This document shows positions 12,337 through 64,000 of a DNA stretch of 64,000 bases, one piece after another. The notes under the pieces were generated by a model. That model saw only the letters and a list, made by a program, of their open reading frames with translations. It did no database searches and was not told the DNA's origin. Every line of letters begins with the position of its first letter. Within the stretch, counting starts at the first letter, position 1. Source of the DNA: Liolophura sinensis (taxonomy: Eukaryota; Mollusca; Polyplacophora; Chitonida; Chitonidae); contig NC_088296.1 in the NCBI RefSeq assembly GCF_032854445.1, positions 17,661,485-17,725,484 on the forward strand, written 5' to 3'. The position numbers and the translations under genes were made by a program.

Positions 12337-12510
12337 TCAGAGTTGTTCCCCTTGATCTATCCGTCCGGCTTTCCTATCCCAGCCTTCGACTTCCTCAATG
12401 GTTTCAGGAAGGGGTTTACGATGCGTCTCTGGTAAGACTAGGCACAACACCCCACCTATTATTGTCAGCACCCCGAACACTGTAAGTGGAAGTCGGGGGA
12501 TGGTCTTTGC
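12337..12510 (-). CDS. SLC22 gene exon 10: TM12 and C-terminus
   Basis: Reads AKTIPRLPLTVFGVLTIIGG, then VLCLVLPETHRKPLPETIEE and a short cytoplasmic tail ending GEQL before TGA. LPET-x-x-KPLPETIEE is the diagnostic C-terminal signature of SLC22 carriers. The acceptor is TTTATTTCCAG|GCA, phase 0. Confidence 0.93.
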   Translation of the reverse strand, partial: AKTIPRLPLTVFGVLTIIGGVLCLVLPETHRKPLPETIEEVEGWDRKAGRIDQGEQL

Positions 12511-15500
12511 CTGGAAATAAAGAAAACTGAAATTCACAGTTTTTCGTTCTGAGTCTCAACAGGCTATATGGTCACATGGATGACTGGTAAGTATTACGGA
12601 GGAAGGAAACCGTGCAGAGCCTGGTGGAAAACTGACAGGCTTTTACGTGTACAACCAAAGGAAGGCACATGGACTTGAACCCACAATGACCGCACTGGTG
12701 AGAGACTCTCCGGGTTTTGTTCATGGGTAGCATGGTGACCCCTCGGACCACGACCCGCAGTTACATTTCATGAGAAAACTCTCTACATCAACTGCAAGAG
12801 GGTAATGGTAAGTGCAGCTTTGGCCTGCATCGCCATTACGATGGAAATTGGATCATGTTATCTTGTAAAAAATGGCAAATTCACAACTTATGTTATGCTG
12901 TATAAAAATTCACCAATGTTTTTCAATCAGGTCCTTAATTCAGCGAATGACCTATGTTACAAGACAGGGCGTCAAAAAATATTCTTTATTTATTTCTTTA
13001 TTTCATTGGGGTTTTTCGTTGTACTCAAGAATATTTCCCACGTGAGATCAGAAAGGAAGCTAGCATTAGTGACAAGCTCAGTTGTCAATGACTTGTGATG
13101 GCATGCTAACCACTAGGCCACTGGCCCCAAACACGCCGACTAACCAGCCATCTATTTGGCACACAGACTGAGTGGTTAGAATTGAAATTTCGACCTGCAA
13201 GACACGTGGGTCAACATACTGTACAGTATACATGGGAAATATTACGCAACTTACGCTGGAGGCAATGAATGGGGCTGCCACAGCACCAGCAGTTTCAAAG
13301 GCTGAAGCAATGCCTATGCCAAGGTTCCTGTAAACAAGAGGAAGTAAATGGATGTAGCAGGAAAGAAAAAAAATTACTGTACACATGCAAATTAAAGGTA
13401 TTCATAAACCTGTACAGGTACTTTCCATCACATATATTTATAACACAGAGAATTACAGGCCAGGGGATCCAAACCAAGGCGCGAAGGATGAAGACCAAAT
13501 AGAGCATATTAAAAGAACCAAACACAGAGACCAGATGAAACCAGACATGCACGTAGGCTGGGGAAACCAAAGAGAAGCTGGAGACATCCTCGCAACCTGA
13601 ATGGTTGTACAGTGCTAGCCAGAGTTGTGTATCCCTTTAAAACCTCTATCGTGGTATAGGGCTACACAGAGCTGGATATAACCTCATACACTCCATCATT
13701 ATACAGAGCTAGTATATCCCTACATACCCTGGCTATCCCTACATACCCTCTATCATTATACAGAGCTAGTATATCCCTACATACCCTGGCTATCCCTACA
13801 TACCCTCTATCATTATACAGAGCTAGTATATCCCTACATACCCTGGCTATCCCTACATACCCTCTATCATTATACAGAGCTAGTATATCCCTACATACCC
13901 TGGCTATCCCTACATACACTCCATCATTATACAGAGCTAGTATATCCCTACATACCCTCTATCATTATACAGAGCTAGTCACAGCTGGATATCACCTCAC
14001 AGGCTCTATCATTATAACACAGCTAGTCACAGATGGATATCACCTCATAGCCTCTGTCATTATACAGAGCTAGTCACAGCTGGATATCACCTCATAGCCT
14101 CTATCATGATACAGAGCTAATCACAGCTTGATATCCCTGCTTATCCTCCATCATTATACAGAGCTAGTCACAGCTGGATAGCGCCGCACACCCTCTATCA
14201 TTATACAGAGCTAGTCACGGCTGGATATCAACCCTTACCCTCTATCATTATAAACAGGGCTAGTCACAGCTGGATATCACCGCATACCTTCTATCATTAT
14301 ACAGAGCTAGCCACAGCTGGATATCACCACACACCCTCTATCATTATACAGAGCTTGTCACAGCTGGATATCACCACACACCCTCTATCATTACACAGGG
14401 CTAGCCACAGATGGATATCCCTGCATACCCTCTATCATTATACAGAGCTAGTTACAGCTGGATATCACCACACACCCTCCATCATTACACAGGATTAGAC
14501 ACAGCTGGATATCCCTGCATACCCTCTATCATTATACAGAGCTAGCCACAGTTGGATATCACCGCATACCCTCTATCATTATACACAGGGCTAGTCACAG
14601 CTGGATATCACCGCATACCTTCTATTGTTATACAGAGCTAGCCACAGCTGGATATCACCACACACCCTCTATCATTACACAGAGCTAGTCACAGCTGGAT
14701 ATCACTGCATACCTTCTATCATTATACAGAGCTAGCCACAGCTGGATATCACCATACACCCTCTATCATTGCACAGAGCTAGTCACAGATGGATATCACT
14801 GCATACCTTCTATCACTATACAGAACTAGCCACAGCTTGATATCACCTTATAGCCTCTATCATTACACAGGACTAGACACAGCTGGATATCCCTGCATAC
14901 CTTCTATTGTTATACAGAGCTAGTTACAGCTGGATATCACCACACACCCTCTAACATTACACAGGATTAGACACAGCTGGATATCCCTGCATACCCTCTA
15001 TCATTATACAGAGCTAGCCACAGTTGGATATCACCGCATACCCTCTATCATTATACACAGGGCTAGTCACAGCTGGATATCACTGCATACCTTCTATCGT
15101 TATACAGAGCTAGCCACAGCTGGATATCACCACACACCCTCTATCATTACACAGAGCTAGTCACAGCTGGATATCACTGCATACCTTCTATCACTATACA
15201 GAACTAGCCACAGCTTGATATCACCTTATAGCCTCTATCATTACACAGGACTAGACACAGCTGGATATCCCTGCATACACTCTATCATTATACAGAGCTA
15301 GCCACAGCTGGATATCCCTGCAAACCCTCTATCATTACACAGGACTAGACACAGCTGGATATCCCTGCATACCCTCTATCATTATACAGAGCTAGCCACA
15401 GCTGGACATCACCTTATAGCCTCTATCATTACACAGGACTAGACACAGCTGGATATCCCTGCATACCCTCTATCATTATACAGAGCTAGTCACAGCTGGA

Positions 15501-17318
15501 TATCACCACACACCCTCCATCATTACACAGGATTAGACACAGCTGGATATCCCTGCATACCCTCTATCATTATACAGAGCTAGCCACAGTTGGATATCAC
15601 CGCATACCCTCTATCATTATACACAGGGCTAGTCACAGCTGGATATCACCGCATACCTTCTATTGTTATACAGAGCTAGCCACAGCTGGATATCACCACA
15701 CACCCTCTATCATTACACAGAGCTAGTCACAGCTGGATATCACTGCATACCTTCTATCATTATACAGAGCTAGCCACAGCTGGATATCACCATACACCCT
15801 CTATCATTACACAGAGCTAGTCACAGATGGATATCACTGCACACCTTCTATCACTATACAGAACTAGCCACAGCTTGATATCACCTTATAGCCTCTATCA
15901 TTACACAGGACTAGACACAGCTGGATATCCCTGCATACCTTCTATTGTTATACAGAGCTAGTTACAGCTGGATATCACCACACACCCTCTATCATTACAC
16001 AGGATTAGACACAGCTGGATATCCCTGCATACCCTCTATCATTATACAGAGCTAGCCACAGTTGGATATCACCGCATACCCTCTATCATTATACACAGGG
16101 CTAGTCACAGCTGGATATCACCGCATACCTTCTATCGTTATACAGAGCTAGCCACAGCTGGATATCACCACACACCCTCTATCATTACACAGAGCTAGTC
16201 ACAGCTGGATATCACTGCATACCTTCTATCACTATACAGAACTAGCCACAGCTTGATATCACCTTATAGCCTCTATCATTACACAGGACTAGACACAGCT
16301 GGATATCCCTGCATACACTCTATCATTATACAGAGCTAGCCACAGCTGGACATCACCTTATAGCCTCTATCATTACACAGGACTAGACACAGCTGGATAT
16401 CCCTGCATACCCTCTATCATTATACAGAGCTAGCCACAGCTGGACATCACCTTATAGCCTCTATCATTACACAGGACTAGACACAGCTGGATATCCCTGC
16501 ATACCCTCTATCATTATACAGAGCTAGTCACAGCTGGATATCCCCACAAACCCTCTATTGTTACACAGGGCTAGTCACAGCTGGATATCACTGCATACCC
16601 TCTATCGTGATACGGGGCTAGCCACAGCTGGATATCCCTGCAAACCCTCTATTGTTACACAGGGCTAGTCACAGCTGGATATCACTGCATACCCTCTATC
16701 ATTATACAGAGCTAGCCACAGCTGGATATCACCTCATAGCCTCTATCATGGTAGAGTTCTGCAAGGCTAGCCACAGCTGGATATACCTCTGCCATCAAGG
16801 TTGTCAAGACTACAGGTGAGAAGTGATATAAAGTGGCACACACCTGACTACAGTGGGAAAGATCTCTACACACAATAGGTACACTATCATCTTGCGATCC
16901 CAAAACCTACTTATCAAGACTACAGGTGAGAAGTGATATAAAGTGGCACACACCTGACTACAGTGGGTAAGATCTCTACACACAATCAGTACACTACCAT
17001 CCTGAGATCCCAAAACCTACTTATCAAGACTACAGGTGAGAAGTACATGTAATTTGGAGGAGCTCACCTGACCACAGTGGGAAAGATCTCCAGGCAAAAC
17101 AGGTAGACGGTCACATAAGATCCTGTGATGCCAAATTTGCTGATCATTGCCAATGTTGTTTTTAACCAGGTAAGATCCGCACCTGAATCTGTAAATCATA
17201 GATTTATAGAATGATAGATTTCCAGTTGTACAGGTGGGTATATATATAATTCTTCTTCTTTTAGTCCATATAATTGTATATGTACATGTATGTGTATCAC
17301 AAATGTCAATAGTTTCTC

Positions 17319-17357
<39 letters not shown>

Positions 17358-17366
17358 ATATATATA

Positions 17367-17409
<43 letters not shown>

Positions 17410-20400
17410 TTATGTTTATAAAATCATTGATCAACTTTGACCTGGTAAGACCAGACAAGGTGCGGGTTCAAACCGGGCTTTAGACAGCAAATCTGTTGAT
17501 ACCCCTACTCTAACTGCTTGTGGGCGTACAATGTAAGTGATAATAAGCGATGGGTGAGGGCCGTGTGAATGTTTGTGTGGCTTAACCACCAGTATGATGT
17601 GCACATGTGCAAGTCGCATGTGGGAAAGTTCATCAGTAACTTGCCAAAGGTTTGTGGTTTGGGTTGGACACTGGTTTCCTGCACTCATGAAAATGACCAC
17701 CTTTGGTTAAGTCAAAGATTCTTGATTATGGCAGTGAAGAACAATCAAATACTACTAACTAACAAACTAAATGTAACTAACTGGATAACTGACTAAATAA
17801 ATAAATAATACTGTGTACCTGTGGAGGTGGGTATGAAAATAGCTATAACACTGTTTACCTGTGGCGGTGGGTATGAAAATAGCTATAACACTGTTTACCT
17901 GTGGCGGTGGGTATGAAAATAGCTATAACACTGTTTACCTGTGGCGGTGGGTATGAAAATAGCTATAACACTGTTTACCTGTGGCGGTGGGTATGAAAAT
18001 AGCTATAACACTGTTTACCTGTGGCGGTGGGTATGAAAATAGCTATAACACTGTTTACCTGTTGAGGTGGGTATGAAAATAGCTATAACACTGTTTACCT
18101 GTGGCGGTGGGTATGAAAATAGCTATAACACTGTTTACCTGTGGCGGTGGGTATGAAAATAGCTATAACACTGTTTACCTGTGGAGGTGGGTGTGAAAAT
18201 AGCTAAAACACTGTTTACCTGAGGAGGTGGGTATGAAAATAGCTATAACACTGTTTACCTGTGGCGGTGGGTATGAAAATAGCTAAAACACTGTTTACCT
18301 GAGGAGGTGGGTATGAAAATAGCTATAACACTGTTTACCTATGGAGGTGGGTATTAAAATAGCCAAAACACAGTTTTACCCGTTGACTTGGGTATGAAAA
18401 TAGCTACTGTATAACACTGTTTACCTGTTGAGGTGGGTATGAAAATAGCTACTGTATAACACTGTTTACCTGTGGCGGTGGGTATGAAAATAGCTACTGT
18501 ATAACACTGTTTACCTGTTGAGGTGGGTATGAAAATGGCAATAATACTGGCACAGCCGCAGACCAACATAAACACGCAGAGTGGGCGTCGTCTTCCGAGG
18601 CTGTAAATAATCCACAAATCTTGATGATCTCCGAGAAATGACTGTCAGTAATCTCCAGGAATCAAAATATAGCATCACTGAATAGACCACTTAAAATTAT
18701 GCATAAAGAGTTTAGCAACTCTGACGTCACAGGAAGTTTTTCCAATTCTCATCACGACACAGTATGTTGGAATACCTCTTTTTACCCATAAGTAAAAGAT
18801 TACTGAAATAATGCTCCCAAAAATTCCTTCCTTCTGGTGAACACCAGGAAAAAAATCTGATGTGATGTCAGAGTTCCTAAATGTTGTCGGTATTGCTCAT
18901 GTATCCACCTACTATTCAAATACGTGAATGCTTTTCAACACTCTTTAAAAAAATCGGAAAATATTTTTATGCACAGTTCTCATGTTGTCTTCATATTTTA
19001 GACTCTTTTTTTTTTTGCCACAACACAAAATATTCAACCAAGATCTTGACTGATAACTAGTGCCAAGGAGGTTAGGTTTGGAGTCTGTTTGACTGTCCGT
19101 CTGTCTGACTGTCCGTCTGACTGTCCATCTGTCTGACTGTCCATCTGTCAACTGTCCATCTGTCTGACTGTTCGTCTGTCTGACTGTTCGTCTGTCTGAC
19201 TGTCTGCCTGCCTGCCTGACTGTCCGTCTGAAACTATACAGATTAAGTTATGAAGCGACGTGGACAAAAGTTTGTTAACAATCTACTCTTGGACTAAAGA
19301 TAGAGCCATTAAATTTTAGAATTTTTGTGGCCACTGAAAATAGAACAGGGTACTCTCCCCTTGTCTGTTGTGCAGGAATTTGTACATTCACCTTTGTAAG
19401 AGGTGTGTGCCCCCAAGAGCACTTACTAACTGACTGACCCCTTAAACATCGGAGGCAGTGCAGAATTTTTCCCTTAACCTGTGACTAAACCAATACTTTG
19501 AATCTCTGAACAATATGTGTGCAGAAACTACCCCGGCTTTACTCAAAGGAATAGGGTGGCTGCATACTTTTAATTTTCGTTATGTGGTGAAACAGTGAAG
19601 CAGCACCAGGCTCTATTCTTACGTCACAACTTGGCTGCAGAGAAATGTCTAGAATGTTACGATGTATTCGTTTCTACTGTAACATTATTTTGTCTTTTTC
19701 ATGTGAAGTCATTATGATTAAGTTTGAAAAGTAACGTTTTCAGAGTCAGGCTGCCAGCAGTTTACCGAAACATGGTGGGAGGAAACCGGGCAGAACCCGG
19801 GAGGAAAACCAAGACCATCCACAGGTTGCTTGCAGACCTTCCCACTTATGGATGGAAAGGAAGTCAGCATGAGTTGGACTTGAACTCACAGTGACCGCAT
19901 TGGTGAGAGGCTCCTGCTCAAAAATTACAGTGCTTTAATAGTACAGTTTCCCCTCACCATTCAACAGTCCCCATACAAATGAGATAGGCGGGGATTTCCA
20001 CAAGTCCACTGATGAACAGGTTGAGAAAGATGTCCCCATGTAGTGTGGGCACTGAAAAGCTGATCCCAAAGTAACTCAAACTATTGACAAGCCTGAAAAT
20101 AGAAACAGAATGAAACGTCTATATCTCTTTTCATATGTTGAGGAATCCCAACAGACACGACAGAATCTTTATCTTTACTCCAGTTGTCAATTTTTACGCC
20201 TCTGAATGCACTCTTCAATCTTCCAAAAAAAGTGACCAGTATTGCTGGATGTACTTTGAAAATATAAATCTGTAAGACTTTTGAAGACTAAAATGTGTGG
20301 TTCAGGTAGGGTCATATATGAAAAAAATTATAGAATAACCTATCCCGATCAGATATCAATCCCTTAATCAGACCAAAGATGGGTCATGTTTGTGGTCGAA

Positions 20401-23400
20401 TTTGTACAGGATATAGGGTAGTCAGATCCAGGAAATCATAAGCAATCCATGTGGTTGTAATCTTTAATTTAAATTTATTTGATTGGTGTTTTGCGCCAAA
20501 CTCAAGAATATTTCACTTATACGACAGCTGCCAGGATTGTGATCGGAGGAAACCGGGCAGAGCCCGGTGGAAACCCACAAATGTCCACAGGTTGCTGGCA
20601 AATCTTTAATTTAAAAGTTAGGATTTTAAAAGGAATGGAATTTGACGGTTGGGAATTTTGAAGGGGTCTGTATGGTAGATTTTCTAGTCACCTACCTTGT
20701 GATGTCACCCCATAAACTTGTCTACCTTGTACTGCTCTGTACACAACCTTGTTCAGTTGACTCAAATACATGGTATCAAATTGACTAAAACCACAATGGA
20801 GTTATTAGTCAAATGAAACCTTTGATATTTATATGTATTTAAGTCTTGACCCTGGACACAATTAATTTCATTACCTAGTTGAAATGAATTCGAAGTTCCA
20901 ATACTCTGCTACTGGCACACTTTGAACAGGCTAACTGTTACCTGTACTAGTCAATCTGAGTATCTTACTATATGTAGCACTGCACACAGTCTTTGTGCAG
21001 GCTACTAGCACACTTTTTGCAAGCTACTAGCACACTTTGAACCAGCTACTAGCACACTTTGAAATATCTATGAGCACACTTAGTGCAGGAGGGGTAGCAC
21101 TAGACTTTGTGCAGGCTACTAACACACTTGGAAATCACTACTAGCCCATTTTAAAATAGCTACTAGCACACTTTAAGCATACTTGTAGCACAATCAGACA
21201 GCTGCTTGCACACCCTGAGCAGGCTTCCACCACTGCAACCAGATAGCCTGTATCTGCCGCGGGTGTGGTGTAATGGATGTGGTTTGCTGATACAGTGGTA
21301 AGTATCCAACGGTAAAGATACTGTGACAAGGGTAGTTACAGGACATGATGCTGACATGATGGTAATTACTATACACAGAAGGCTTCAATGACGCAACATC
21401 CCCCTTGTGTTATTGTACATGTAAGCAAAATCTCAGCACTACTTTTGAGGAACAACCTTAAACACTTACCTGAGCAGTGATTCCAACACACAAGGACTAC
21501 TTTTTGAGAAATAACCTTAAACACTTACCTCAGCAATTATTCCAACACACAAGGACTACATTTTGAGAAACAACCTTAAACACTTACCTGAGCAGTGATT
21601 CCAACACACAAGGACTACTTTTTGAGAAATAACCTTAAACACTTATCTGAGCAGTTATTCCAACACACAAGGACTACTTTTTGAGAAACAACCTTAAACA
21701 CTTACCTGAGCAGTGATTCCAACACACAAGGACTACTTTTTGAGAAATAACCTTAAACACTTACCTAAGCAGTTATTCCAACACACAAGGACTACTTTTT
21801 TGAGAAACAACCTTAAACCCTTATCTCAGCAATGATTACAACACACAAGGACTACTTTTTGAGAAATAACCTTAAGCGCTTACCTCCACACTGATTCCAA
21901 CACACAAGGACTACTTTTTGAGAAATAACCTTAAACACTTACCTCCACACTGATTCCAACATACAAGGACTACTTTTTGAGAAACAACCTTAAACACTTA
22001 TCTCAGCAGTGATTACAACACACAAGGACTACTTTTTGAGAAATAACCTTAAACACTTACCTCCACACTGATTCCAACATACAAGGACTACTTTTTGAGA
22101 AACAACCTTAAACACTTACCTCAGCAGTGATACCAACACATGAGGGATTAAGTTTGCAATTTCCTCACTTACAATAATTAACAGTATTACTGTGCTTTAC
22201 ATGATGCTTTGGGTATCACTAAATTTTTTGTATTTATGTATTTATTTATTTATTTGACTGGTGTTTTATTTTATTCTTTGATTGGTTTTACACCGCACTC
22301 AAGAATATTTTACCTGTACAACACCGTCATTATGGTGGGAGGAAACCCACAACCATATGTAGGTTGCTTCCAAACCTTGCCCACGTATGGTCGGAGAGGA
22401 AGCCAGCATGAGTTGGACTTGAACTCATAGCGACCACATTGGTGAGTGGTTCCTGGGGCACTACACTGCGCTAGCACGCTAACCAACTGAGCCACGGAAG
22501 TCCTGACTAGTGTTTTACATTGCACTCACAAATAACTGACTTTATATGACGACGGTCAGCATTATGGTGGGAAGATAAACACTGTATCTGTAAGAAAGCT
22601 AAAAAATTCAGCATCTTTACCATAAATAGAAGGTAATAAGAGAATATATCCTTATGCGTGGCGTCCGGAATAAGTCTATCACCGTGTAGGAGCGTGGGGG
22701 TCTCACATCCGGAGTAAGCACACCCCCTGGAGGGGTTGCTACAACATCAGGATCTGACACGGTGTGATAGTTAGTCAAAACTGGAGCACCTGAGTTGTTT
22801 CTGTCAGTCCAAGCTCCATTTGTTAACCCTTTACCACCAAACCCTCTCTGATCAGTCCAAGCTCCATTTGTTAACCCTTTACCACTCTCTTCAGATTCTG
22901 AGTGGTTGTGAAATTTGGAAGGTTTCACAGTCTGTGTATTATCAGAGTCCACATCTGGAACTACAGTCTTTAAAGGGCCATTCTGGTTTTTCTCAGTGTT
23001 TGTTTTGACTTTCTTTTGATCGCCTTTGATCAGTTTCATGGAACTGTGGAAAGAGGACAGATTCATAATCTCAGGTGGCAGAGTTACTCTGTTCAGCCTC
23101 GCCGCTTTCCTGATGACGACTTCGGCTTCCTTATACCTCTGCTTTGCCATCAGCCAAGGTAAAGATTCTGGTAAAATCCTGCAACAGAAGGAAAGAGGTT
23201 AATGAGTGAGTGAGTGAATGAGTGCTTGAGGTTTAACGTCGTACTTAACAATTTTTCAGTCATATGATGACGAAGGAATCCTTTAGAGTGCATGTAATGT
23301 GCCTCCTTATTGCAGGACGGATTTCCACCAGTCTTTTATCTAGTGCTTCTTCGCCAAAAATACTTACCGAAGTAAGCTGCCCCATCCGAGCCATTATGCT

Positions 23401-26400
23401 GATACTAGTCAACCAGTCATTGCACTATACCCTTCATGCTGAATGCCAAGTGAAGAAGTTACAACTTCCTCATTTAAGGTTTTAGTTCTGACTTGACCCA
23501 GGATTGACACTGGATCTACCGCTCCTGAAGCGGACGCTCGACCAACTGTGCTATCGAGGCCGATGGGAGGTTAATAAGGCATGTCTAGTCAATGCCATTA
23601 TAATACAGAAAAGTTCAAGAAAAATATTCCTAGTTTGCATTTCATAGTCTTGGCCTGGTTGTTTGAAACTGTTTGGAGACCTTATACCAGATTTAACTTG
23701 TCTTTCAATTTTGTACTTAACCCCCAAAAAATTTCATAACAGCATATTAAATATGAACTAAGCCTTCTGCTGTTTTAATGCTTTAATGCTTTAAATTTTG
23801 GCCAACTGTATTGGCTGCTGAAGTTGGCTAAAATATTAATCATAATATCTGACTTAATACCAGTATTAACAAATACACTTTTGCACAACTTGGTTCTAAT
23901 TTGTCACATTTTGTATCATAGTTGACAACATTTGGAGATGAACATTTTTATTAACAGGTGTTGAGAATTTGCTAAAACATCAACGATCCATCACAACAGG
24001 CATGCATGCATATTTAAATTCTTTACCCTGGTCACTATTACAAAATTATTTATTTATTTATTTGATTGGTGTTTTACACCGTACTCAAGAATATTTCACT
24101 TGTACTACGGCGGCCAGCATTATAGTGGGGGGAAAACGGGCAGAGACCGGGGGAAACCCACGACCATCCGCAGGTTGCTGTAAGACCTTCCCACGTATGG
24201 CCAGAGAGGAAGCCAGCATGAACTGGACTTGAACTCACAGCAACCGCATTGTTGAGAGACTCCTGGGTCATTACGCTGCGCTAGCGCGCTAACCGCCTGA
24301 GCCACAGAGGCCCCCTACTATTATAAAATATTAACCTTAGGACATGAAATTACTTGTGAAAAATAATATCAATTCACCTGCATAGTTCAACGCAGTATCC
24401 AGCAGTAAACACTTAAAACTAACATTGAAAATCAAATGATTTATTTATTTGATTTATTTGATGTGCCAGTTTTATTCCGCACTCATGAATATTTGACTTA
24501 TACAACGGCGTCCAGCATTATGGTGGATGGAAACAGGGCAGATCCCTGGGGAAACCCACAACCATCCGCAGGTTGCTGATAGACCTTCCCACGTACGGCC
24601 GGAGAGAAAATCAAATGAGTTCGCTACAATGATGACCCAGATACTTATCACAACACAACTAAGTTATCACAACACAAGTTATCACAACATGTTATCACAA
24701 CACAAGTTATCACAACATGTTATCACAACACAAGTTATCACAACACAGAATTGTCTCTGTCATCATACAAACTACATTCCAAGCATTATGATTATTACAG
24801 AGACGGAAGAGGATGGGCAGTGGCTCAAGTCCTTACCTTTCTGTCTCTAAGACACACGGCATGATTTCAAACCCAGCACTGGGCAGGGAATTCTGAATTC
24901 ATGGGGCTTTAATTGAGAAATTTAAGACCTTTGAGGTCTTACATATAAGGTGGCCATCCACTAATATGGGCTGTATGTGTGTGCATCAAATGTGGGAACT
25001 TTTGTCTATAACTGAATGTGCATCAAATGTGGGAACGTTTGTCTATAACTCTGTGTGAATCAAATGTGTGAATGTTTGTCTATAACTGTGTGTGAATCAA
25101 ATGTGGGAATATTTGTCTATAACTGACTGTGGATCAAATATGGGAACGTTTGTCTATAACTAAGTGGGAATCAAATGTGGGAATATCTGTCTGTAACTGA
25201 GTGTGAATCAAATATGGAAATATTTGTCTCTAACCGTGTGTGAATCAAATGTGCGAATGTTTGTAACAGTGTGTGCATCAAATGTGGGAATGTTTGTCTG
25301 TAACTGTGTGTGCATCAAATGTGGGAATGTTTGTCTATAACTGTGTGTGAATCAAATGTGAGAATATTTTTCTATAACCATGTGTGAATCAAATTTGTGA
25401 ATGTTTGTCTATAAATGTGAGTGCATCAAATGTGGGAAAGTTTGTTTATAACTTGCCAAAGGTTTGTGGTTTACTCCGGTTTTCCTCCACTCATAAAACT
25501 GACTTAATTCAAGCAACAATTTTGAGTATGGCATCAAATTAATAAATTAATTCAATAAATATATAAATCAATGAATAAAATAAATAAAAAAATGTAAAGA
25601 GAGGAAAAAGAAATTAGCTTACCAGTAATACACCAAGGTAAGAAAGTTAGGGATGGATATGGCCAGCTCCAGATGTGTCCAGTCACGGATTAGGTATCCT
25701 AGCAACGCCAGAACCATAATTCCGAAAGCCCAAAACAGGAAGAGAGCGATGTAAGGCATCGTGCGGCTGGAAGAGGGAAAAGCCTCTGGGACCATTACAT
25801 AAGCGACTAATCCAATAGTCTGAAAAATACAAATTTGAAAATTGCCCTTTATTTGAAATACATGTACCTGATGAGACTCTAGCAACACTGAAATGAAGAT
25901 GGTAAATTATGTTGGAAAAGGGAGATAACTGGAGCTGTGCTCCATTCATTCTAAAATAGAAATGTACCTCCTGCCTCCGTATGGATTACATCTCTAACAG
26001 ACTTGGGCACCATACTTTTTACAACAGTGACGTTGAAAGCGAGGTTCGTGCATTACGCCACCTGATCTGAGATGGCTACTTTAACCTTATGTAAACAACT
26101 GCACACGATGGTGAACATATCGAACTGTTGAGCAGTGCGCTATTTACTGTTGCTTGTGGGTATTATTAACATCTGTGCCCACGCTCGAGCTAAACCATGG
26201 CATTTCAAATATATTTCCACACTTATCACTTGATTTTGCGTAACGGAATTCACAGGGGACAAAACAACAGTTCTCGCGAGTTCATAAGCTGATATACAAG
26301 ACTTTTACCATACCCAGTCGATAAGAATGCACTGACCTCTCTTTTCTCACATCGTGCACAAAGTGCGGTGACCTGCTTTGCCTTTAACTCTACAGAAAAG

Positions 26401-29400
26401 CCGGGGCTTACCTTGGCATACGCCATTACTTCTTTGAACTCTTATCATGACGTCTTTTGTGGGCGCCGCCATGTTGAATAAATTAATATTCATCTCCTAA
26501 TACATGAGTAAATAGTTCATATTTATCCTGGATATTTTTTGATGAATTCAGATGCAGGTAGTTGCTTGATTCTATACCATAGATAAAGAATTAGGCTAAA
26601 GGAATCTGAAAAGATATTAAATATCTGATACTCCTCTATCAACAATTATCCCCAAATTTGGGGGGGGTGGGTGGGGAATCACTGCGCTGATGGCGCCCAT
26701 CTATACACGGGCCTTGTCTCCGTACCACAGGATCACGTAGAAGGGCGTGTGATCTTGAACATACTCCACTGTGAACCACTGGAGGCAAGGGGTGACATTT
26801 TTTGAATGAGGGCCAATATAACTTGATGTTTAACCCTATGAATTAGTAAAAAAAAAAAAGAAAAACCCCAAAAACACAATAATGTTACAGTCACAGGAAG
26901 CCATATACATATAAACCAGGGTTATTACATAGCTCAAAGCTTTCTAGACAGTTTAACGGTGACATAACTTAGGCAAAAAGGAATTAACCACATTTCTTTA
27001 CGTACAGTGACAATTTATTTATTTGATTGGTTTTTTTTTATGCAGTACTCAAGAATAGTTCACTTATACAACGGCGGCCAGCATTATGGTGGGAGGAAAC
27101 AGGGCAGAGCCCCACGACCTTCTGCAGGTTGCTGGCTGACTTTTCCACTTACGGCCAGACAGGAACATACAAAAACAATAAGTTTTCCACAAGAAATATG
27201 ATATAAAACATGTGACAAGATAAGGTGGGGTATATATTTAGATCATATGCTAACTTAGACAATAATCAATGTGTTAACTCCCACTGACTTAGGACATCAA
27301 CAGATTGTGTCAGATTAACATTTGATCAAAGATATATTTTTATGATAAATTAGGCACAATTTCAAAAGTTTTTGGAGGAAACTTGACCTAATAAAAAGTA
27401 ATATATTCTTTTAAGCCTTTTTACTTTTTTAAAATATTTATATATTTTATGATTCAAAGCTTCCTGCAGTTGTGATATTATACAACTAAATTATGTGGAT
27501 TTACAATAAATATATATATTATTGTATTATTATTATCATCATTATTATCATCATTATTATATAATTTATCTGTATAAATTACCTGGAAATTTAATTGAAG
27601 ACTTTATTAAATCATAAATAAGGATTCTTTGTAAAAATATTCATCTGTAGCACCAACAGAATAAATTCTCCAGAACAAAAAAAAGCTGATGTTATAACAA
27701 GTACATAAACCTTCAACCTTTAATTTTCTTTTCTACCAAAAAATTCCACATTTGGGTCATTTCTTAGTGAATTCTGACTATGCAGCATGCTTGTGGGGTT
27801 AATCCCTTTGCACTGTTTTAGTCTTATTTTTATGCTTATTTTTATGTGATGACATGGCAGCATTCTGAGTCATTCTAGACTGCTAACACCTAATAAATTC
27901 AATAAATATCACTGCATTTTTTTTAGCTTATTCTACTTAAGCCATGGTGATAGCGGGTGTGAAATTTGCTACTATTTAAGCAGTTACATAAAACCCTACC
28001 CAAAGTAAATTTATTAGAGGTTTCACTTCAGCGGTTATGTGTAACCATATGTCAACATCGCACTGTTATCACTGCTCTGGTTTAACTCTCCTGGCTGTCT
28101 AAGGTTTTTTACCCTAATTCACAGGTTCAAATCCAACTCTGGCTTATTCAGTTGTAGATTTAAGTCTGGGGGTTTGTCATGTACCTGGCAAGAAGTAGTG
28201 GTTTCTCCAGAAGGCTAAGTGAAATTTTCCATCCACTGATTTATTTAGTTATTGAATTGTTGTTTTATGCCGTACTTAAGAATATTTCATTTATGTGACG
28301 GCGGCCAGCATTATGGTGGGAGGAAACCGGGCAGAGCCCGGGGGAAACCCACGACCATCCACAGGTTGCTGGTAGATCCTTTGAAACATTTCTGGATATA
28401 ATATAAAATGTCAATAATGTCAATACCTGATTTAGCGCTCCCAGAAAAAACCTGATCACCATAAACACAATGTAGTTATTCACAAACGCAGCTCCGACAC
28501 CGAGGGCACCTTGTATCCATAATGCTCCCAGGAGGATCTTCTTCCGGCCAAATTTGTCAGCAAGTGGGCTGATGAACAAGGAACCAATGATCATGCCGGC
28601 CATGAAGAGAGACGAACTAAGATCTACGAGGTACACCCGGTCACAGACAAAATCCCACTGGAAAGCGGAAATGAAATGATGGATTGGTTGACAGAGTGCA
28701 AATGTGAGCAAAAGAGTGAGTGATTGGTTTAATGAATGTCTTATCCTTGAATAAGTGATACATTAAGTGATTTAGCTTAGAGCAGAGCTCCCTAAGTTTT
28801 CTTGCTTAAGTGAAGGCATTTTATTTACACAACATCATCCCTATACTTAAGTAGTGTTTGATTACGAAATTTTCGAAAAAACAATTGACGCTGGACTCAA
28901 CCAACCTAAAGCAATTTACTGAACTTGGCAACTGCTGTGCCGAGCCCTCTTTTAAGCTTTAACAAACAAACTTTTTACAACAAAACTGAATGTATAATTG
29001 CTTGAGCTGATTGATTGGTTGTTTTTTTCTTGAATTAAGAGCAAGACACACCTGAGTTAGGAACGTAGAAGAGAAAGTGTCTCCATACACCCATCCATAC
29101 TGACACGGTTGAGTGGAGTTCACTTCTCCCGGGACTGGCATGCGACACTGATCTGCCTCCTGCTGCCTCCAGGGGGCGCTGTCGTTTACGAGGCTGAGGT
29201 TTGTGGCAAATGTCATGTTTTCCGGGATGTAACAGTGATGACCCGGATCTGCACCCAGGAAGATTGGGCCAAACAAGTGCCAAACTCCGCGCATACAGAC
29301 CATACTGACAAGGAAGAACACAAGTGCCTGATAATTTCCACATTTTCCCAGCAGGCAAAGAATGTCCTCAGCCTCCATCGGTGAATCTGCAGCAGGGCTG

Positions 29401-57559: not shown

Positions 57560-58420
57560 TTGTATATCCTGATCAGTCAAACACCGCTTGTAAACACTTA
57601 GAGATCAACAGGCTTTGGGCTATCCACAATCGTTATCTGCCCAAGACCGCTCATAAATACCGAGAAATTTCCAATCCCCAGGTTTTGTAACGTTCACTGG
57701 CAGAAAATACTGGTACATAATGTATTACAAATACTGTTGACAATGTGGTCGATAATCCCCCTCTGACTATTGCCCAGAGCATGCGCATAAAGCTGTACGG
57801 CCATTACGTAGTAGTACCATACATGTATGTAAGTCTACATCGATTTTCTGTAGGCAGTCGTTTTGATTTTAAGATCAAGATGGATCAATTTTCAGAAATG
57901 GCTTTCCCATATACGTCGTTTTAATTGCTTATTACTGTTGTAAATAAGTATGATCACCTGGCAGGTGTATGCATAGAGGAAGTGCATTGTAACTATTCGA
58001 CTGAAACGAATAAACGCCTGGAAGAATTCATTGGGTCATTTCTCACACATGAGCTTATTGCAGCCAATGGGAGCTTCACACAACTGAGCAACTCATCGCT
58101 ATGCCATAAAAAAGTTGTCAGAGCTTCGGAAGCCTTTATCATTACTAACCAGATTGTACAGCCTATTGACAAACTTTCGAAGCAGAATCCTTATACTAAT
58201 TAGTCATATAGACTTGACAGCCTTAACAAGCGTAAATTTTGCGGCAAGCTCGTAATTAGTCCTTGTTTTAAGGTGTGTATTTTAGTATGGATTGGAGTTA
58301 AAAAAGATTTTAAAGGAAGGAATCAATTTGCCATAGATTATCGTAAATAACTGACTCTGAAAAGTTTGCAAGAGCATTTAATGTTGTGAAATGAAGTGTT
58401 AACTCATATTTAATATACAT
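57560..58420 (+). repeat. Duplicated element, copy 1 (with 92-codon frame)
   Basis: TATCCTGATCAGTCAAACAC at the left, and a stretch from GTTGACAATGTGGTC (57736) to beyond 58400, match copy 2 at 62720-64000 almost base for base. The frame 57925-58203 begins MLITVVNKYDHLAG and has no recognised domain or clear signal peptide. Confidence 0.85.
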
Positions 58421-60779: not shown

Positions 60780-62690
60780 TTGGAACAGGGGAACTTTCAC
60801 AGTATAGACATCTTCTGATGATCTCTGCTCACCAGATACAGCTCCATAGATCTTACTGGACATTTTTTGTTGACCACTGCTCACCACATACAGCTCTCCA
60901 AATCTTACTGACATCTCCTCTTTATCTTTGCTCACTACCTGAGACCATACTGGACATCTTGTGTTGACGTCTGCTTGACATACAGCTCTCCAAATCTTAC
61001 TGGATATCTTCTGTTGACCTTTGCTCACCACATACACCTCTCCAGATCTTAATGGACATCTTCTGTTGACCTCTGCTCACCACATACACCTCTCCAAATC
61101 TTAATGGACATTTTCTATTGAACTCTGCTCACCACATACTGCTCTCCAAATCTTACTGGACATCTTCTGATGATCTCTGCCCACCACATTCAGCCCTGCA
61201 GATCTTAATGGACATCTTCTGATGACCTCTGCTCACCACATTCAGCCCTGCAGTTCTTACAGGACACCTTCTGTTGACCTATGCTCACCACATACTGCTC
61301 TCCAGATCTTACTGGACATCTTCTGATGACCTCTGCTCACCAGATTCAGCCCTGTAGATCTTACAGGACACCTTCTGTTGACCTATGCTCACCACATACT
61401 GCTCTCCAGATCTTACTGGACATCTTCTGATGACCTCTGCTCACCACATTCAGCTCTGTAGATCTTACAGGACACCTTCTGTTGACCTATGCTCACCACA
61501 TACTGCTCTCCAGATCTTACTGGACATCTTCTGATGACCTCTGCTCACCAGATTCAGCCCTGTAGATCTTACAGGACACCTTCTGTTGACCTATGCTCAC
61601 CACATACTGCTCTCCAAATCTTACAAGACACCTTCTGTTGACCTATGCTCACCACATACTGCTCTCCAGATCTTACTGGACATCTTCTGTTGAAAACTGC
61701 TTACCACATACAGCTCCCCACACCCTATTTGACATCTTCTGATGACCTCTGTTTACCACATACAGTTCTCCAGATCTTACTGTACATCTTCTCTTGACCT
61801 CTGTTCACAACATACAGCTCTCTACGTCTTACTGGACGTCTTCTGCTGAACTCTGGTCACTACATACTGCTCTCCACTGGACACCTTCTGTTGAACACTA
61901 CTCACCATATACAGTTTCACAGATCTTACTGGACACCTTCTGTTGAACACTGCTCACCACACACAGCTTCACAGATCTTACTGGACACCTTCTGTTTAAC
62001 ACTGCTTACCACATACAGCTCCACAGATCTTACTGGACATCTTCTGTTGACCTCTGTTCACCAATCGCAGCTCCACAGATCTTACTGGACATCATTTGTT
62101 GACCTCTGATCACCACATACAGCTTCACAGATCTTACTGGACATCGTTTGTTGACTTCTGCTCACCACACACAGCTCCACAGATCTTACTGGAACATTCT
62201 GTTGAACACTACTCACCACATACAGCTTCACACATCTTACTGCACATCATTTGTTGGCCTCTGCTCATCCCCTACCCGCTCTCCGGATCTTACTGGACAT
62301 CTTCTGTTGACTTCTGCTCTCCAATCGCAGCTTCACAGATCTTACTGGACATCTGTTGACCTCTGCTCACCACACACCTCCACAGATCTTACTGGACATC
62401 ATTTGTTGAACTCTGATCACTACACACCTCCACATATCTTACTGGACATCTTCTGTTGACCTCTGCTCACCAATCGCAGCTCCACAGATCTTACTGGACA
62501 TGATCTTTTGACCTCTGCTCACCACACACCTCCACAGATCTTACTGGACATCATTTGTTGAACTCTGATCACTACACACCTCCACATATCTTACTGGACA
62601 TCTTCTGTTGACCTCTGCTCACCAATCGCAGCTCCACAGATCTTACTGGACATGATCTTTTGACCTCTGCTCACCACACACACTCAGATC
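60780..62690. repeat. 52-bp minisatellite, long copy (~36 units)
   Basis: CTCTCCAGATCTTACTGGAC ATCTTCTGTTGACCTCTGCT. Sub-families with CCACAGATC dominate the right half, and two-unit blocks recur. Confidence 0.95.
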
Positions 62691-62719: not shown

Positions 62720-64000
62720 ATGTGTATCCTGATCAGTCAAACACCGCTCATGAACCCCTAGGAGTCTTCAAACCCCAGGGTATGGGTTACCCCTATCGTG
62801 AACAAGCAAATACTTGCCATAAGCAACTAGAAATTTGTAATGTCCAGGATTTGGCTACCTTTAATCGTTATCGACCAAACACCTCCCATAAACAACAGAA
62901 ATTTGTGATCCCCTGGTTTTAATCATAATCGTAAGCTATAATCGTAATAAGCCTTTCGCTTTTTATAGGGCGGGAGGGAGTGGGGGTGATGGGATGGGTG
63001 AAGTGTAATGGTCGGGTATCTTATCGGCGAGCCGGGTCATGAATGATATAGCTGCGTCAGGTGTGCCAAATACAGAAGTTGAAAAACAATATTACAGTTG
63101 AGCTCCCAAGGAAGATAGACTGTCGTGAACAAAAGAGGAGATACATGCGCTCATTGCTGAGTGATTGGGTCGAACATTATTTCGCGTTGTTCCTGTTCCA
63201 TTTACTAAGAGCAAACCATTCTATTTTTTCCGAGAAGATTTTGTCACTGGGAAAACTATGGCACACTATGGAACTCAACCGGTTATTTTTGTCACGTTCA
63301 CCAGCAGAAGCTAGTGGTATATAATCTGTTACGATTAACGTTGACAATGTGGTCAATAATCCCCCTCTGACTATTGCCCAGAGCATGCGCATAAAGCTGT
63401 ACGGCCATTACGTAGTAGTACCATACATGTATGTAAGTCTACATCGATTTTCTGTAGGCAGTCGTTTTGATTTTAAGATCAAGATGGATCATTTTTCAGA
63501 AATGGCTTTCCCATATACGTCGTTTTAATTGCTTATTATTGTTGTAAATAAGTATGATCACCTGGCAGGTGTATGCATAGAGGAAGTGCATTGTAACTAT
63601 ACGACTGAATCGAATAAACGCCTGGAAGAATTCATTGGGTCATTTCTCACACATGAGCTTATTGCAGCCAATGGGAGCTTCACACAACTGAGCAACTCAT
63701 CGCTATGCCATAAAAAAGTTGTCAGAGCTTTGGAACCCTTTATCATTACTAACCAGATTGTACAGCCTATTGGCAAACTTTCGAAGCAGAATCCTTATAC
63801 TAATTAGTCATATAGACTTGACAGCCTTAACAAGCGTAAATTTTGCGGCAAGCTCGTAATTAGTCCTTGTTTTAAGGTGTGTATTTTAGTATGGATTGGA
63901 GGTGAATAAAGATGTTGAAGGAAGAATTCAATTAGCCATAGGTTATCGTAAATAATTGACTTTTAAAAGTTTGCAAGAGCATTTAATGTTGTGAAATGAA
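62720..64000 (+). repeat. Duplicated element, copy 2 (with 92-codon frame), runs off the window
   Basis: Begins with the same TATCCTGATCAGTCAAACAC as copy 1, carries about 400 bp of extra sequence (62930-63340), then matches copy 1 through 63529-63807 (frame MLIIVVNKYDHLAG...) to the window end. Six differences in the frame are all amino-acid changing. Confidence 0.85.

Follow-up and report, generated by a model that had tools for sequence, protein, structure and literature searches.

Tandem copies of an exon end and its splice donor in a predicted SLC22-type transporter gene of the chiton Liolophura sinensis

A minisatellite that begins inside a coding exon and runs across the 5' splice site into the next intron raises the questions of where its units came from and which of the copied splice donors are used. 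Such an array is present in a stretch of 64,000 nucleotides from the chiton Liolophura sinensis (assembly GCF_032854445.1, contig NC_088296.1, positions 17,661,485 to 17,725,484), which is referred to here as the window and in whose numbering all positions are given. The array lies in a minus-strand gene (12337..29378), for which a model of nine coding exons (29378-29052, 28657-28427, 25819-25623, 23178-22621, 20092-19958, 18600-18515, 17182-17068, 13327-13255, and 12510-12337) has consistent phase at the joins and yields a protein of 631 amino acids. Judging from its matches, this protein is an SLC22-type transporter of the animal type, with a predicted role in transport. SLC22 members made up 26 of the 30 distinct sequences among the solved-structure matches listed, the top match being an OCTN2 chain (9pdq, E 5.2e-84), and the Pfam families MFS_1 (PF07690, 82.5 bits, cut-off 33.4) and Sugar_tr (PF00083, 78.3 bits, cut-off 22.3) were recognized, with MFS_2 as a third match under its cut-off; an Rfam search gave no matches. 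The similarity to SLC22 proteins (OCTN2, OCT1-3, OAT1, and URAT1), which belong to the MFS superfamily, is present in both six-helix halves of the encoded protein, which differs from SLC22 transporters in the long loop that separates the two matched halves. A long loop insert with an internal repeat, GKGLTNGAWTD, present twice, is encoded by coding exon 4 (22621-23178, minus strand).

Coding exon 6 (18515..18600, minus strand), as placed by alignment with SLC22 chains, ends in phase 1 at the donor CAG|GTAAAC. It had been called exon 7 in a previous reading made from the sequence alone, a number that would hold if there were an upstream non-coding exon. The minisatellite across this donor occupies 17804..18549 on the minus strand (17805-18549 according to TRF), and thus the array reported in the sequence-only reading is real, but is longer than the interval given there (18378..18600), extending from 18549 to about 17804. 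It contains 18 AG|GT junctions followed by a partial copy, CAGTATTATT, so that, as that reading had noticed, the exon end and its donor are repeated downstream, with about seventeen copies in the next intron. When the array is split at AG|GT, the spacings counted from the end of exon 6 are 45 bp three times, 41 bp once, and 40 bp thirteen times, the last junction being at 17819; the exact 45-bp distance between the exon ends at 18515, 18470, 18425, and 18380 was therefore correctly read. CAG|GTAAAC is found at 15 of the 18 junctions, the first three donors being identical over all nine scored positions, and the deviating junctions are CGG|GTAAAA (18380), TAG|GTAAAC (18339), and CAG|GTACAC (17819). 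The end of exon 6 is itself a full 40-bp unit, the first of the array, and it is identical without gaps to the thirteen 40-bp units at 34-37 of 40 positions and to the three 45-bp units at 35, 37, and 34 of 40 positions after the five bases ACAGT are taken out. On the minus strand, CAGTATTATT occurs exactly twice in the window, once at the exon edge of the array (18540..18549) and once at its intron edge (17804..17813).

The likeness between the array and the exon end is not due to chance. When the last 60 exon bases and the first 20 intron bases at each donor were compared with the rest of the following intron, using random stretches of the same length from the window as the null, the end of exon 6 with its donor reached 85, where the highest of 173 random stretches was 28, and the end of exon 7 with its donor reached 53, where the highest of 163 was 23. 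At the six remaining donor junctions of the gene, no match to the following intron went beyond the null, and the same held for all of its 8 acceptor junctions. The strength of the individual donors was graded with a matrix based on human frequencies, whose scores grade sites and exclude none. On this matrix CAG|GTAAAC scored 3.46, which ranks it fifth of the 8 donors in the gene (range 0.29 to 8.31), and the deviating junctions at 18380, 18339, and 17819 scored 0.8, 1.25, and 0.7, respectively. The proposal of four tandem in-frame donors was thus right with respect to the frame of all four, but the fourth, CGG|GTAAAA, is a poor match (0.8 versus 3.46 on the human matrix). This low score does not rule out the site, because two of the gene's own donors, those of exon 2 (0.29) and exon 4 (0.78), scored no better on the same matrix. 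Donor-like sequence alone says little, since the same array has 17 sites scoring 4 or more on the human matrix on its plus strand, and the weight of the array junctions rests on their copying a real exon end.

Use of the donors at 18470, 18425, and 18380 would add 45, 90, and 135 nucleotides, respectively, all of which are open and keep the phase, giving proteins of 646, 661, and 676 amino acids in which the remaining protein is unchanged. The three in-frame 45-bp units (18380..18514, minus strand) translate to GKQCYTVAIFIPTAT, GKQCYTVAIFIPTST, and GKQCYTVAIFIPKST, 15 residues each, as had been claimed along with the lack of stops among the first four donors. The claim that the farther repeats, of 40-41 bp, break the frame also proved accurate: the frame is kept by only 3 of the 17 extra donors, and the remaining 14 (junctions 5 to 18, 17819..18339) are non-productive, because every donor from 18339 onward leads to an in-frame TAA (18356-18354, minus strand) and a truncated product of 564 amino acids. 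We considered the 45-bp spacing as a possible sign of selection for the frame and rejected it. Of 20,000 random insertions of 5 bp, 85.9 percent left one unit open, and so did 228 of the 232 short tandem duplications or deletions by which the unit becomes a multiple of three. Since a suitable length arises in one case out of three and most changes leave the unit open, chance alone would yield an open in-frame unit in about 3 of 10 cases. The open frame is therefore no evidence of selection; it neither supports nor excludes it.

The extra residues would be placed in a turn between two helices. A hydropathy scan of the protein gave 13 peaks as a rough count, two late ones overlapping the next, and the joint of exons 6 and 7 follows the ninth peak (residues 490-508) and precedes the tenth. 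The gap in the alignments falls at the TM9-TM10 turn in five printed SLC22 alignments. The placement of the joint at the TM8-TM9 turn in the sequence-only reading was thus wrong, and was rejected, as the motif GRRR lies between the eighth and ninth peaks and the joint after the ninth. For the encoded protein, we take the helix numbering, and the position of the TM9-TM10 turn on the outside, as presumed. In alignment coordinates, the stretch at the joint is 4 residues shorter in all 23 SLC22 chains of solved structure that were matched, representing a few genes, than in the form made with the 18515 donor. Each added unit would lengthen it by 15 more residues that repeat the end of TM9 (AIFIPT), and with one added unit the match to SLC22A3, the best chain, fell from 72.8 to 62.4 bits, as it would with any insert. 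Together, the shorter stretch in the solved chains and the drop in bit score favour 18515 as the main donor, with longer forms possible as minor products. The acceptor on the other side of this joint is doubled (17182-17188, minus strand; CAG ATTCAG|GTGCGG), with two AGs 6 nucleotides apart, which could give an in-frame variant of two residues at the same joint as the donor array of exon 6.

A second array of this kind is found in the same gene. The end of coding exon 7 and its donor are copied at 16954 and 16844 (array 16804..17090, minus strand), with spacings of 114 and 110 bp, in a sequence unrelated to that of the exon 6 array. Both copied donors are CAG|GTGTGT and scored 6.03 versus 8.31 for the real donor on the human matrix. 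Reading through the real donor meets a TGA immediately behind the joint codon (AGG TGA). This array serves as an internal control, in that copies of an exon end arise without coding benefit; because it cannot be read through, such arrays need neither a frame nor use in order to form. A general rule that the arrays in this region come from exon ends was rejected, as only exons 6 and 7, out of 8 donor junctions, exceeded the null.

The array, its source, its limits, its frame, and its stop are directly established, and from these we infer its seeding by a direct repeat, the order of events, the choice of donor, and the decay of messages. The explanation that we consider moderately probable as a whole is a tandem duplication that crossed the donor, a 40-bp ancestral unit with a later gain of 5 bp, and splicing mainly at 18515. 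The 10-bp direct repeat now found at both ends of the array may have aided a tandem duplication spanning the donor of exon 6, which would have copied a unit of 40 bp that consists of the last 35 exon bases plus GTAAA, and the copies would then have spread along the intron. Because such a unit copies the exon end and donor, each would carry a donor equal to that of the gene itself and an acceptor-like AG. The unit adjoining the exon would subsequently have gained 5 bp (ACAGT) and been copied, giving rise to the three in-frame units. The 40-bp unit is probably ancestral and the 45-bp unit the result of a later insertion, a judgement based not on identity but on the ACAGT gap that the 45-bp units need in alignment; a 45-bp ancestor with a later loss of 5 bp is a possible, less simple alternative. 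The occurrence of CAGTATTATT at both array edges suggests that it was the seed of the duplication, but the terminal one may instead simply be the last copy, incomplete and with the spelling of the exon preserved, and on both readings the limits of the array are fixed. With the preferred explanation, most splicing would most likely use 18515, splicing at 18470 or 18425 may account for a minor share and lengthen the outer TM9-TM10 turn by 15 or 30 residues, and use of any donor from 18339 onward would lead to the stop and probably to decay of the message.

A similarly arranged minisatellite, with a unit of 12 bp, is known from a human gene, IFI6. Turri, Cuin and Porter in 1995 reportedly described, as their title has it, a minisatellite of this gene with multiple splice donor sites. 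According to PMC4526556, downstream donors in the repeat units of IFI6 (G1P3, 6-16) are used, resulting in three mRNA species. The likeness to the chiton array is that several donors are supplied by a minisatellite lying at an exon-intron joint; 5' splice sites carried by the units and some extra units in frame are features that the chiton array shares. The gene and the sequence are unrelated, and use in mRNA is reported there, whereas the extra donors of the chiton array are candidates, its first three extra units being in frame and the later ones reaching a stop. By analogy, the chiton locus joins the known donor minisatellites, with IFI6/G1P3 as a close precedent. In passages of PMC2812944, human segmental-duplication genes are described that have variable internal tandem repeats at exon-intron boundaries, with 27 intron modifications; a boundary minisatellite expansion alters gene structure in these cases as in ours, but novel introns are described there, whereas the chiton array multiplies a donor into an existing intron. 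For potato RdRp, it is stated in PMC4974935 that a tandem duplication crossing an exon-intron boundary creates an intron, following the Rogers model with AGGT segments. Tandem copies containing AGGT are common to both, but the chiton array copies an existing donor, and a new intron is described only for potato. An intronic tandem array is also found in an abalone TSSK1-like gene, in which the number of repeats of the minisatellite differs among individuals and the GT-AG boundaries are conserved, as described in passages of PMC6905558 that are silent on a splice site in the unit. Our literature search found no title on the array of this gene, and nothing wider is claimed. What is added to the known kind is the occurrence of the process at two exons of one gene, together with array limits that point to a seed.

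Other readings of the array have to be weighed against predominant use of 18515. It is unlikely that the in-frame donors at 18470, 18425, and 18380 are substantially used, with the array's copy number altering the transporter between individuals. Because the first three donors are identical at nine positions, the spliceosome has nothing in the sites to choose by, and the frame is open through three units. When equal duplicated donors compete, the downstream site can be favoured, which would predict use of the array donors and thus argues against the explanation with 18515. The precedent of IFI6 (PMC4526556) speaks for such use, and the variable abalone minisatellite (PMC6905558) for changes in copy number between individuals. 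Against substantial in-frame use stand the turn, which is already 4 residues longer than in all 23 solved matches, the loss of SLC22A3 bit score with an added unit, the 14 non-productive donors among the 17 extra ones, and the open 45-bp frame, which chance would produce in about 3 of 10 cases. Quite unlikely, in our estimate, is a splicing dial, in which the in-frame donors would compete with the 14 that lead to a stop, so that the repeat number would set both the length of the turn and the share of messages destroyed, the exon 7 array being a second dial that could only lower output.

AG|GT with an acceptor-like context in every unit is the sequence form of a fused acceptor and donor, or of the AGGT-duplication type, and the units might accordingly be stepped through by recursive splicing, or pieces of several units might be removed as mini-introns, leaving the protein unchanged. 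Counted over the 16 leading bases of the 20 that precede the joint, the pyrimidine share is 0.75-0.81 in 17 of the 18 units and 0.625 in one, all of which lies between the extremes of the 8 acceptors in the gene (0.56-0.94), but this similarity to acceptors follows from copying an exon end, and a 40-bp unit would make a short intron. Recursive splicing is highly improbable in our view, and intron gain by AGGT copies, although formally possible on the form of the units, is likewise rated low. That the array or its copy number is a product of the assembly is barely credible: one sequence was seen, and tandem arrays are easily miscounted in assembly, but the units differ in an ordered way, with blocks of 45, 41, and 40 bp and variant spellings, and the window contains many other arrays.

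The locus amounts to a natural experiment in competition among identical donors at a fixed spacing, in which steps of 15 residues serve as a ruler and the stop marks the use of far donors. Even with silent extra donors, it would reveal the amount of donor duplication that a gene can bear. Two adjacent exons with independently copied ends also raise the question of whether exon ends seed minisatellites more often than has been noticed, which is countable genome-wide.

Several other repeats were observed in the window. No exon origin was seen for the donor-like minus-strand arrays at 21438-22140, 13942-16749, and 60807-62682, the upper edges having been viewed for two of them and the null test covering the two in the gene. 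The first is a 59-bp array in intron 4 whose units carry a strong donor-like site, CTGAG|GTAAGTG, with 9 sites scoring 4 or more (best 8.5) on the human matrix and no exon found at its edge; the last is a 52-bp array with 30 donor-like sites of at least 4 on its minus strand by the same matrix, beside which no coding exon was seen. Of 22 array units examined, AGGT is present in 6 on the minus strand and in 2 on the plus strand, and AGGT as a whole is commoner on the minus strand (271 versus 184), from which no inference is drawn. The whole window has 72 TRF rows, several of the arrays being longer than 1 kb, and a dispersed element with a translation trace like YSRIFHLYDGGQHYGGRKPGRARGKPTTIRRLL is present in many copies. 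Furthermore, a duplicated stretch carries near-identical open frames of 92 residues at 57925-58200 and 63529-63804 (both plus strand), 5.6 kb apart, which contain VVNKYDHLAGVCIEEVHCNY.
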